The notes beneath the pieces are model-generated. The model worked only from the letters and a program-made list of their open reading frames with translations. It had not been told where the DNA came from and did not search any database. The position numbers were made by a program, and so were the translations under genes. This document shows positions 57,637 through 64,000 of a DNA stretch of 64,000 bases, one piece after another. Source of the stretch: Vulcanisaeta thermophila (GTDB taxonomy: Archaea; Thermoproteota; Thermoprotei; Thermoproteales; Thermocladiaceae). Position 1 is the stretch's first letter. Every line of letters begins with the position of its first letter. Location of the stretch: NCBI RefSeq assembly GCF_001748385.1, contig NZ_BCLI01000004.1, positions 372,001 through 436,000 on the forward strand. Reading direction: 5' to 3'.

Positions 57637-58533
57637 CTAGAGCCATATGGCATTTATTATCAATGCCGAGGCCAGCATGGCCGTGACATCGTTAACATCG
57701 TAGGGTGGTGTGTACTCAACGATGTCGAAGACCCTGGGCCTCAGGGCCCTGGTTAACCTCTTAATTATCCTGATTATCTCCCTCGGTGTGAATCCCCCTG
57801 GTGATGGGCTGTTAACGCCTGGCGCGTATGCGGGGTCCACTACGTCCATGTTAACGCTAAGGTGAACCTCCCTGTTGCTGCTTTGATTAATGACTTCATT
57901 CAGTACATTGTCTATTCCCACCTCATCCACCTGCTCCATGGTGTACACCTTAACATTCAATTTCTCAGCCTCCCTAAACAGGTACGGTGCATTTGAATGG
58001 GTCCTAACACCGATTATGAAAATCCCAGCTCCGGGATCCACCTCCCTAACCCACCTAACAACCTGCCCGGAGGTCAACCCCTCAGTCACAACCCTAACGT
58101 CAGGGTGCGCATCAAGGAGTATGTACGAGACGTCACCACCAACGGCTCTCCTAAAGCCCCTGAAGGCTGCGTATGACGTGGTGCTGTCACCGCCAATCAC
58201 CACCAACTCCCTAACAAGGCCCAGGGCCTCGGAAACCGTGGCCTCCACCCTACGCCAAGTCTCATTGTGATCACCCACGACTACATCCACATCACCAAGA
58301 TCCACAATACTTAGGTTATTACTGAATACGTATGGTGATGAGTAAAGCCAGGACCTAACCCTAGAAGGGGCCTGCCTAGAGCCGGGCCTGGTACCCACGG
58401 CACCATCCCATGGAACGCCCAGGATCCCCACATCCCCCTTAACCCAGCCCCTCCTGATGATCTCGCCTACCCTTACATCCCCTGGATCTTTAATGAACTT
58501 ATACATGGATTCCCTAATAAACGGCACACTCAC
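57637..58533 (-). CDS. Ureohydrolase-family protein with degenerate metal site
   Basis: 298 residues of the arginase/agmatinase fold. Of the six Mn ligands, DAHPD keeps its three, but GGDHS reads GGDST (His lost) and S-x-D-x-D reads SVNMD (first Asp changed to Asn). It may thus bind one metal only, use another ion, or be non-enzymatic. The C-terminal PGVNSPSPGGFT is standard. A canonical paralogue is encoded at 61280. A divergent partner at 58678 is a membrane permease. Confidence 0.78.
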   Translation of the reverse strand: MSVPFIRESMYKFIKDPGDVRVGEIIRRGWVKGDVGILGVPWDGAVGTRPGSRQAPSRVRSWLYSSPYVFSNNLSIVDLGDVDVVVGDHNETWRRVEATVSEALGLVRELVVIGGDSTTSYAAFRGFRRAVGGDVSYILLDAHPDVRVVTEGLTSGQVVRWVREVDPGAGIFIIGVRTHSNAPYLFREAEKLNVKVYTMEQVDEVGIDNVLNEVINQSSNREVHLSVNMDVVDPAYAPGVNSPSPGGFTPREIIRIIKRLTRALRPRVFDIVEYTPPYDVNDVTAMLASALIINAIWL

Positions 58534-61279: not shown

Positions 61280-62254
61280 TTAGTAGTTTTTGAGCATTAG
61301 TTTTGATTTTACAGACATTGCCTGGTATAGTATGTTTGCCGCTAATAAACTTGTTATGTTTGCTACATCCAATGGTGGCGCTACTTCAACAACATCAAAG
61401 CCCACTAGGTTTATTTTAGCATCGGCTAAGCTCCTTATTATCCTGAGAACTTCATTACTCGTAAATCCCCCTGGCTCCCTGGTCCCAGTACCCGGCGCAT
61501 AGGCTGGGTCTACTACGTCTATATCAAATGAGACATACACATTCCCCTCGAGGCTCCTTAATTCGCTTATTAACCACTCAATTCCCCTCTCTTCGACCTC
61601 ACGCATCATTATTACTCTAATGGGTACTGGAGATTCCCTGGGATAGTTAAAGTCGGACTTATCGTATTGAGTGCCCCTTATACCTACCTGCACAACCTGG
61701 GCTATCAATCCCTCCTCAATAGCCCTCCTAACCCATGTACCATGGGTATACTTCTCACCCCAATACTCATCCCAATAGTCAAGGTGTGAGTCAAAGTGTA
61801 GAAGTATGGGTTTAAACATTTTACCTATAGCCCTTAATACACCCAATGTTATGCTATGATCACCACCCGCTATGAATAGTGTGGCTCCCTGATTAATTAC
61901 GTCCTTTACTACTTCCTCAATCCCATCCAGAGTTTTGGTTATGCTTACGGGTATAACATCAACATCACCGTAATCCACAGCCCTAAGGACCTTGAATGGG
62001 TATACGTCTAATTCAGCATTATAGGGCCTTAGGATTCTCGACTCGGATCTAATGTATTGAGGCCCAAACCTAGCACCCACATAAAACGTTGCGCCACCAT
62101 CAAATGGAACACCAAGAAATACCCCTAGAACATTATTATCCCTCAGATTCCTAGTGAATGGGAGCCTCGCGAATGTTATTATTTGAGTAAAACGTGGGGA
62201 TTTGAGTGCATCTATGGGCCGGCCTGGTTCCCAGGATGCCATGTTTTCACTCAC
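61280..62254 (-). CDS. Ureohydrolase, agmatinase/formiminoglutamase-like
   Basis: 324 residues with all metal ligands of the family: GGDHS, DSHLD and SFDIDVVDP. It could hydrolyse agmatine, arginine or N-formiminoglutamate. The last option fits the context: the upstream MFS gene and the divergent urocanate hydratase gene suggest histidine breakdown (HutG role). Its ATG at 62254 overlaps the MFS stop by 8 bases, so the genes are co-translated. Confidence 0.85.
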   Translation of the reverse strand: MSENMASWEPGRPIDALKSPRFTQIITFARLPFTRNLRDNNVLGVFLGVPFDGGATFYVGARFGPQYIRSESRILRPYNAELDVYPFKVLRAVDYGDVDVIPVSITKTLDGIEEVVKDVINQGATLFIAGGDHSITLGVLRAIGKMFKPILLHFDSHLDYWDEYWGEKYTHGTWVRRAIEEGLIAQVVQVGIRGTQYDKSDFNYPRESPVPIRVIMMREVEERGIEWLISELRSLEGNVYVSFDIDVVDPAYAPGTGTREPGGFTSNEVLRIIRSLADAKINLVGFDVVEVAPPLDVANITSLLAANILYQAMSVKSKLMLKNY

Positions 62255-63495
62255 GTCTCCTTAGTACGAGGTACACGGCCATTAGATAACTTATGATCAT
62301 TAGTACGGATCCAATCACCATGTTTATGGTAATGGCGGGTAGCCAAGGACCTGGCTCTGTGGATGCCCCAGCCATGAGTGTGGTTATTATTGCTGCCCAG
62401 GCCGCTAACCAGGTACCACCATTGTAACCTAGACCAGTTCCAGTGGATCTAACATTGGCTGGTAGAAGATCCCTAATGTAGACCTGCATAACCCCGACTG
62501 GTAATACGGCTATGAAATCCCAGAGTAGTACGAGCCAACCATTATAGCCAATTAATATCCCGTACATTGTTGGGTATATTAGTATTAGGAGTATCAGTGC
62601 CGTTACCAGTAGGGCTTTCCTGGAACCTCCCAGTAAATCCACAAGTACACCACCAAACACACTACCCGCCGCATCACTGGCTGAAAGCACGGTTAGTATT
62701 AACCCAGCTAGTGCGGCTGAGTAGCCTAGAACATCCTGTAGTATGAAGGGTGATGGTTCAAGCATAACGTAGTACTCATAGAGGAATCCCATTGTTGCAA
62801 GGAGGATGGTTATCATTGGTAGCCAGTAATTCCTGAATAGAACCTTATATGGACTCTTAACCCTCTCCGCTCTCTCCCATTCTGGGGATTCGGTTAAGAA
62901 TCTTCCTCTAAATATAAAGGCTACTACAGTTGTTATTATGCCGCTCCAGAACACTATTCTCCAACCTATGGTAGTCATCGCACTACTGGGTAAGTATGTT
63001 GCAACTATGGTGTACGTAAAGGTGACACCGAAGACACCCAAATCAAAACCAGCCTGCATAATGCCACTGGCAAGTCCCCTCCACTTAGTGACACTCTCCA
63101 CACTCATAATACCACTTGCTGAGTACTCCCCACCAAGGAAGAAGCCCACCGCAAACCTTAATAAGAGAAGGAGTATTATAGCGGCTATCCCAGCCTGGGC
63201 ATAGGTTGGTAAAAAGCCCGTTAGGAAACTAGCCATTCCAGCGCCTAACATGGTTATGTAAAGTACGTAACGCCTGCCCAATTTATCGGCTAAATCACCA
63301 AAATATACCACCAAGTGGCCTAACAGCTAAAGATAAACTGAATGCTGCCAGCGTTGCCAACATTGATCCCAGGGCACCTAGTTCACTAAAGAATACCTCC
63401 CTTATGACCGGTGCTACAAAGCTATATGCTATAAAGTCATAGGCGTCCAATCCCCAACCAAGCATGGAGCCAACCGCATTACGCCAATTAAACAT
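62247..63495 (-). pseudogene. MFS transporter gene with a frameshift
   Basis: Two frames make one MFS protein of about 415 residues. The first, from ATG 63495, encodes 66 residues ending in RPLGGIFW; the second continues with GDLADKLGRRYVLY. Joined they give the family loop 2-3 signature RPLGGIFGDLADKLGRR. One extra T in a TTTT run near 63300 (minus strand) explains the break. The remainder, with helices 3-12 and FLTESPEWERA after helix 6, is intact and resembles metabolite:H+ carriers. It may be a true mutation, a sequencing error or a slippage site. Confidence 0.8.
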
Positions 63496-63565
63496 TACCT
63501 GTACATTATTATGTTCCTATTTCACTTGTAAAATTATACTAATCTATTTTTAAGCCTTACATTAT

Positions 63566-63580
63566 GATAATACTTATAAG
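63566..63580 (+). promoter_or_regulatory. TATA box of hutU
   Basis: ACTTATAAGC lies about 26 bases before ATG 63603 in the 107-base divergent region shared with the MFS gene, giving a leaderless hutU mRNA. Confidence 0.55.
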
Positions 63581-63602
63581 CTTAGGATCAAAAGGCAATG
63601 TA

Positions 63603-64000
63603 ATGTCGGTACCCCAGAGGTACAGGGGTAGGCCTATTGAGGAGCTTATATCCTCGGGTTATTATGATCCCGAAACCAGGACTGTGCGTGCTATTAAGGG
63701 TCATGAGCTCCATGTACATAGCCGTGACTGGCAGTTGGAGGGTCCCCTACGGATGTTGTTTCATGTTCTTGATCCCGAGGTGGCCAAGGATCCTAAGAAC
63801 CTGGTTGTCTATGGTGGTACTGGCAAGGCTGCCAGGTCTTGGGAGGATTTTGAGGCCATTGTTGATGCGTTACTCACCATGGATAGTGAGGATACGTTGG
63901 TTATACAAAGTGGGCAGCCCGTGGCTATTTTCAAGACTGATAAGAGGGCCCCTAGGATTGTCATGAGCAATGCCATGCTTGTCCCCAAGTGGGCTGATTG
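63603..64000 (+). CDS. hutU: Urocanate hydratase, N-terminal part (continues past window)
   Basis: An open frame from ATG 63603 to the window edge, about 132 residues. The sequence follows HutU closely: WQLEGPLRMLFHVLDPEVA, VVYGGTGKAARSWEDFEAI, TLVIQSGQPVAIFKTD and MSNAMLVPKWAD. The enzyme converts urocanate to imidazolone propionate with a tightly bound NAD+. It is divergent from the MFS-ureohydrolase pair, which together suggest histidine catabolism. Confidence 0.92.
   Translation, partial: MSVPQRYRGRPIEELISSGYYDPETRTVRAIKGHELHVHSRDWQLEGPLRMLFHVLDPEVAKDPKNLVVYGGTGKAARSWEDFEAIVDALLTMDSEDTLVIQSGQPVAIFKTDKRAPRIVMSNAMLVPKWAD

Follow-up and report, generated by a model that had tools for sequence, protein, structure and literature searches.

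In arginase, the metal A site is formed by His101 and Asp128 and the B site by His126 and Asp234, with Asp124 and Asp232 bridging both. An arginase-like protein of Trypanosoma brucei is reportedly a natural ureohydrolase devoid of the binuclear manganese cluster; we take it to belong to the arginase lineage and to have no histidine-utilization (hut) context, unlike the altered HutG described here. In the HutG of Trypanosoma cruzi, residue 114 is presumably the first-ligand position. One of its structures (4myn) is titled as an N114H variant, which implies a natural Asn, and the title of another (4mxr) mentions two Mn. In Bacillus subtilis HutG (3m1r) the first ligand is also different from His (GGDNS), which sets a precedent in this family, and the Asp of SxDxD is retained (SVDMD). 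Both enzymes differ from the altered protein, which has Ser as the first ligand and Asn in place of that Asp. The functions of ureohydrolase-like proteins of the T. brucei kind are termed elusive in an excerpt of one paper (PMC11271267). Excerpts of two papers (PMC11271267, PMC11399263) describe the beta subunit of metformin hydrolase (MefH-beta or MetCb), a ureohydrolase with replaced ligands that is nevertheless required; in contrast to the altered protein, it has lost four or five ligands, is encoded in tandem with an active alpha subunit and works in another pathway. Histone deacetylases (HDACs), which are only distant fold relatives and are compared here by their metal-site ligands alone, hold a single Zn at the arginase MnB position, an equivalence taken from an excerpt of a paper on HDAC10 (PMC5454378).

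The window, that is, the whole stretch of 64,000 nucleotides of Vulcanisaeta thermophila that was analyzed, contains a 298-codon open frame that starts with GTG (Table 1). The translation (298 amino acids) matches the Pfam Arginase domain (PF00491) with 216.5 bits (cut-off 22) and belongs to the ureohydrolase (arginase/agmatinase) superfamily by both domain and fold. Its motifs are GGDST (residues 114-118), DAHPD (141-145) and SVNMD (226-230), and the translation bears out an earlier note on this DNA, according to which GGDST and SVNMD replace GGDHS and SxDxD while DAHPD is intact. The "missing metal ligands" of that note amount to two of the six expected in a binuclear site, the His of GGDH (Ser117) and the first Asp of SxDxD (Asn228), whereas the other four (three in DAHPD, namely its two Asp and its His, and one in SxDxD, its second Asp) are retained. 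In rat arginase numbering, we take Ser117 and Asn228 to occupy the positions of His101 and Asp232, and Asp141, His143, Asp145 and Asp230 those of Asp124, His126, Asp128 and Asp234. The B site keeps its Asp, His and Asp (Asp141, His143 and Asp230, all three invariant), the A-site ligand Asp145 is also retained, and the three ligands of DAHPD are identical across 34 of 34 aligned ureohydrolases. No new Asp, Glu, His or Cys that might act as a replacement ligand was found in the alignment at the 12 positions that set the altered clade apart. Ser155 (TSG) stands at the position of the catalytic His141, where the canonical paralogue has THG, and because it is common to all 26 aligned HutG-like rows, including the 13 with all six ligands, it lies outside the degeneration.

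Table 1. Features of the window and the evidence for each
Feature	Position	Strand	Evidence
Altered HutG-lineage ureohydrolase, 298 aa	57637..58533	-	open frame, PF00491, NCBIfam, AF2 model
Codon of Ser117, replacing the first His metal ligand (GGDH)	58183..58185	-	translation and alignment
DAHPD, with kept ligands Asp141, His143 and Asp145	58099..58113	-	translation and alignment
Codon of Asn228, replacing the first Asp of SxDxD	57850..57852	-	translation and alignment
Codon of Asp230, kept ligand	57844..57846	-	translation and alignment
Canonical ureohydrolase paralogue, agmatinase-type	61280..62254	-	TIGR01230 agmatinase, 204.3 bits (cut-off 174.3)
MFS transporter gene, frame broken near 63298-63308	62247..63513	-	two tblastn pieces in different frames; PF07690 on the longer piece
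Start of hutU (urocanate hydratase, 630 aa)	63564..64000, continues to G000:C4:437456	+	L080:15564-17456; TIGR01228, 769.5 bits (cut-off 375)

The subfamily was found in 19 of the 45 genomes of the order, namely 11 of Vulcanisaeta, three of a second genus that includes Caldivirga, three of a third genus and two Pyrobaculum-like genomes (genus labels other than Vulcanisaeta and Caldivirga were inferred). Ser takes the place of the first ligand throughout the Vulcanisaeta and Caldivirga genera (13 of 13 readable orthologues) and Asn that of the first Asp of SxDxD (14 of 14), so that an alignment of the subgroup, suggested beforehand as a check, finds the changes conserved, and their confinement to a single strain, which would have pointed to gene decay, did not occur. 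In the alignment, all 10 full-length altered proteins have Ser as the first ligand, the three proteins of the third genus have Asn (GGDNS with SLDMD) and 13 other HutG-like relatives have His, among them the Pyrobaculum-like ones (GGDHS with SIDMD or SIDID), and the first position of SxDxD is Asp in the 16 HutG-like relatives outside the altered clade. The 10-row counts and the tree omit duplicate contigs and four of the 14 altered-clade genes, three of them broken (G002, G003 and G007) and one at a contig end (G009); the readable motifs of these four were checked separately. The tree, which was rooted by midpoint only and drew a program warning about long branches, places the 10 full-length altered proteins in one group (support 100/100), joined by the third genus with modest support (81/67) and next by the Pyrobaculum-like pair (99/99) in a 15-row HutG clade with both paralogue groups outside, so that the altered protein groups with other hut-linked HutG proteins and apart from the paralogues. 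The relatives, which share lineage and hut neighborhood with the altered protein and have either six ligands (Pyrobaculum-like) or one change (third genus), form a graded series (His/Asp, Asn/Asp, Ser/Asn), which suggests that one position passed from His through Asn to Ser and that Asp became Asn at the second position on the stem leading to the altered group; this order of the two changes is a reading and not a proof, because the sister position of the third genus has modest support.

Estimates of dN/dS were 0.068, 0.147 and 0.096 for the three pairs with the lowest dS and ranged from 0.068 to 0.243 over the 15 listed pairs (dS was saturated in 5 of 45 pairs), indicating that the altered gene is under purifying selection. 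At the 12 positions mentioned above, all 10 altered members share a residue that none of the 16 relatives has, and six of these positions are no more than three residues away from a ligand or a pocket residue (p 0.02); with the two ligand positions set aside, 4 of 10 are near the active site (p 0.13), and the clustering of these substitutions is suggestive only. The search for relatives in the phylum covered 398 genomes sampled from a larger group, with a cut-off of 1e-58, and since the wider contig scan used short peptide patterns, altered relatives outside the order may exist.

The altered gene is the hutG of a histidine-utilization gene set, a context that the earlier note had missed. In V. 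thermophila (G000), hutU begins five kb from hutG and runs past the edge of the window, and hutH and hutI lie 6.6 kb apart on another contig (C6). In the Caldivirga-type genome G013, hutU, a transporter gene, the altered hutG, hutH and hutI are found inside 7.4 kb, and in the third-genus genome G025 the order is hutU-hutG-hutH-hutI, on one strand and with overlapping ends. Of the 19 genomes of the order that carry the subfamily, 17 have hutU, each time at 8 kb or less from hutG, as against none of the 26 others (Fisher p 1.6e-10, without correction for relatedness); the two in which hutU was not found are the drafts G009 and G010, in both of which hutG is near a contig end. Matches to hutH occur in all 19 genomes and, as pieces, in 2 of the 26 others, and each of the 19 also has a strong match to hutI, which is split in two in G003, G023 and G028. 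A whole hutI in G008 and hutI pieces in G015 and G017 (completeness 54%, 98% and 67%, respectively) represent hutI or hut fragments without a HutG match of this subfamily and argue against perfect co-occurrence, and weak hutI-model matches in genomes without hutH or hutU (G012, G018-G022 and G040) were taken as other amidohydrolases. The assignments rest on scores of 762.8 bits for hutU of G013 (cut-off 375) and of 368.6, 310.8 and 350.8 bits for hutI of G013, G025 and G048 (cut-off 298.15); the best matches of hutH are histidine ammonia-lyase models, but they fall under the NCBIfam equivalog cut-off in all 45 genomes. Outside the order, 10 loci for relatives with the full ligand set were inspected, and in flanks of about 1.5 kb 8 of them have a neighboring hutU, hutH or hutI and two do not; hutG of G048 is likewise next to hut genes. 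As a separate observation, hutI of the Pyrobaculum-like genome G028, whose hutG keeps six ligands, is in two pieces (L091:7141-8330), one match having internal stop codons.

Formimidoylglutamate can also be removed by glutamate formiminotransferase or by a deiminase followed by a deformylase. Neither the N-domain of glutamate formiminotransferase (FTCD_N) nor the N-formylglutamate deformylase family was found in any of the 45 genomes of the order, and no hutF (formimidoylglutamate deiminase) scored above the cut-off in them, with weaker matches in 22 genomes with and without hut genes. This leaves the altered protein as the sole candidate found for the last step.

The best NCBIfam model for the altered protein is that of hutG (TIGR01227), with 160.2 bits, under the cut-off of 229.15, as are several hut-linked proteins with six ligands (L048, 177.2; L049, 162.9; L078, 158.8; L094, 186.3), and for the altered member of G013 the agmatinase model scores 159.0 bits versus 156.6 for hutG. 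Seven pocket residues (Arg147, Glu151, Ser155, Asn181, Tyr184, Asn241 and Glu273) are shared by all 10 altered and all five less altered HutG proteins of the order. The AF2 model, built with a 25-row alignment (pLDDT 91.4, pTM 0.90), has as its nearest PDB fold B. subtilis formimidoylglutamase 3m1r (Foldseek E 4.2e-23; Z 37.8, rmsd 1.9 over 287 residues), with which it shares the Arg after DAHxD and the Asn of the "SN" loop, and T. cruzi HutG also has this fold (Z 35.1). The best 50 PDB matches listed in each of two fold searches are all ureohydrolases, and since agmatinases and metformin hydrolase come close behind 3m1r, the substrate cannot be read from the fold by itself. Because the protein lacks two features by which the family is often defined, a complete set of ligands and a score above the curated cut-off, it is best named a HutG-lineage protein in the HutG slot rather than a proven formimidoylglutamase.

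The place of the altered protein in the gene set, its conservation, the purifying selection and the predicted fold are results of the analysis, whereas its activity and substrate and the number and identity of its metals are inferred. With a probability of roughly 0.6, it hydrolyzes formimidoylglutamate by means of a reduced metal site. This reading is favored because the gene is under purifying selection, the pocket is intact and no other enzyme was found for the step; moreover, the same replacements recur in relatives, next to other hut genes, so the protein is probably functional, with an unusual metal site, and not the product of a broken gene. It would occupy the last step of the route from histidine through urocanate, imidazolonepropionate and formimidoylglutamate to glutamate. 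In the stem lineage of the Vulcanisaeta and Caldivirga proteins, the metal A site would have exchanged His for Ser and the bridging Asp for Asn, the first ligand perhaps having already passed through Asn, while the four other ligands and the HutG-type pocket residues were kept. The protein may still bind formimidoylglutamate and hydrolyze it to glutamate and formamide with one metal in the position of the arginase B site, bound by Asp141, His143 and Asp230 (presumably the counterparts of the HDAC Zn ligands); Asn228 might act as a neutral further ligand, and a second metal would be weakly bound or absent. Among the ideas put forward in the earlier note (a regulatory partner, a new metal usage or a different reaction), new metal usage appears to be the best.

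Several observations count against a reduced-site hydrolase. Among them are the score under the hutG cut-off, the slightly better agmatinase score of the G013 member, the hutH matches under their cut-off, the three genomes with hutI or hut fragments but no HutG match, the absence of a paper showing the pathway by experiment in these archaea among those seen, and the beta subunits of metformin hydrolase, which demonstrate that a degenerate ureohydrolase may be inactive and free of metal. The hut genes of V. thermophila are split over two places, and the transporter gene next to hutU has a broken frame, due either to decay or to a sequence error. The altered HutG is slightly further from canonical HutG than that of the less altered genus (41% versus 43% identity to G031 and 33% versus 35% to G048), and the title of a rat arginase structure (PDB 2rla) associates an altered binuclear manganese cluster with less thermostability and catalytic function.

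A first, unlikely alternative is that the altered protein is a pseudoenzyme without metal that an active ureohydrolase needs as a partner subunit, in the manner of the beta subunit of metformin hydrolase. Such heterohexamers with an inactive subunit have a precedent in MetCaCb and MefH (excerpts of PMC11271267 and PMC11399263), but in those the inactive subunits have lost four or five of the six ligands, and here two are changed and the rest are invariant. Two other ureohydrolases of V. thermophila come into question. The canonical paralogue (GGDHS, DSHLD and SFDID), said to lie 3 kb away and located at 2.7 kb, has orthologues in 5 of the 45 genomes of the order; they accompany the altered protein in four of 14 genomes and were not found in the other 10, among them the 99%-complete G001, G005 and G013, so it is not an obligate partner, contrary to the regulatory role once suggested. 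The third one (GGEHT, with all six ligands; L003:1435-2331, near 602.8 kb of G000:C4) was read in all 14 genomes with the altered protein and is thus the only general partner candidate. However, its gene is about 173 kb from the altered hutG in V. thermophila, unlike the tandem genes of metformin hydrolase, and GGEHT proteins occur in the order both with and without hut genes, including genomes that lack hutH or hutU, such as G027 and G029.

The canonical paralogue is itself probably outside the hut pathway. It adjoins the transporter and hutU in G000 and in the Caldivirga genome G014, and no hut gene or transporter was found in the 7-13 kb read around it in G004, G008 and G009. An agmatinase function was also considered for the altered protein and rejected, as its pocket differs from that of this agmatinase-type paralogue at five of the seven residues checked (Arg147/Trp, Ser155/His, Asn181/Lys, Tyr184/Phe and Asn241/Gly); it scores 142.2 bits against TIGR01230 (cut-off 174.3) and has Ser155 at the His position of the THG loop.

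A second and similarly unlikely explanation is that the substrate has been kept and the reaction has changed, with formimidoylglutamate giving, for instance, formylglutamate and ammonia, or that another product of the pathway is the substrate. Six of the 12 clade-fixed positions are near ligands or the pocket, and S117, T118, Q157, V158, A182 and N228 may form one remodeled site; against this, the clustering is weak once the ligand positions are removed, the seven checked pocket residues are unchanged and none of the 45 genomes has a member of the deformylase family to take formylglutamate further. Retention of the pocket beside a changed metal site would also suit a sensor or storage protein that binds formimidoylglutamate without catalysis and regulates the pathway, another enzyme removing the compound, but this is improbable, given that no other known route for formimidoylglutamate was found in the 45 genomes and that the 298 amino acids contain no second Pfam domain. 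Gene decay is very improbable, for although hutG has stop codons or frame breaks in the low-completeness drafts G002, G003 and G007, other hut genes are also split there (hutH and hutU in G002 and G007, hutI in G003), which fits sequence errors, and ten full-length open genes carry the same two changes, the Ser and Asn conserved in orthologues and the dN/dS well under 1 ruling out a strain-specific event.

If the altered HutG is indeed a hydrolase with a reduced site, it is possible, and is proposed here tentatively, that a two-metal hydrolase became a one-metal hydrolase through steps that are still extant (His/Asp, Asn/Asp and Ser/Asn) while keeping its role in histidine breakdown at high temperature, which would represent an independent arrival, from the arginase branch, at the single-metal chemistry of histone deacetylases. 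In the open-access library that was searched, no description was found of a ureohydrolase that combines Ser as first ligand with a lost bridging Asp, and no hut-linked ureohydrolase without metal ligands by title or start of abstract. Likewise, no paper dedicated to histidine breakdown in Vulcanisaeta or Caldivirga was found there by title or start of abstract, the combination of Vulcanisaeta and histidine ammonia-lyase gave zero matches, and no experimental demonstration of the hut pathway in these archaea was found. The need of ureohydrolases for both metals is usually probed with mutants, whereas here evolution has made the experiment and preserved both the pathway and the intermediate states; the series of three proteins could show how many metals the hydrolysis of formimidoylglutamate needs, and a likely function is offered for a gene left under the cut-offs of curated models.

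Two further features of the neighborhood are worth describing. The pieces of the transporter are 83% and 74% identical to the protein of G013, which sits between hutU and the altered hutG, and the gene is whole in G013 and G014. The agmatinase-type paralogue follows this same transporter beside hutU in V. thermophila and in G014 (L129:15274-16218), forming a patchy two-gene unit; in three other genomes the paralogue lies away from both the transporter and hutU. Finally, a gene for a Cons_hypoth698 protein (PF03601; 58678-60159, forward strand) lies divergent to the altered hutG, and six other Vulcanisaeta genomes have a homologue of it near hutG; it possibly encodes a membrane protein linked to the hut pathway.
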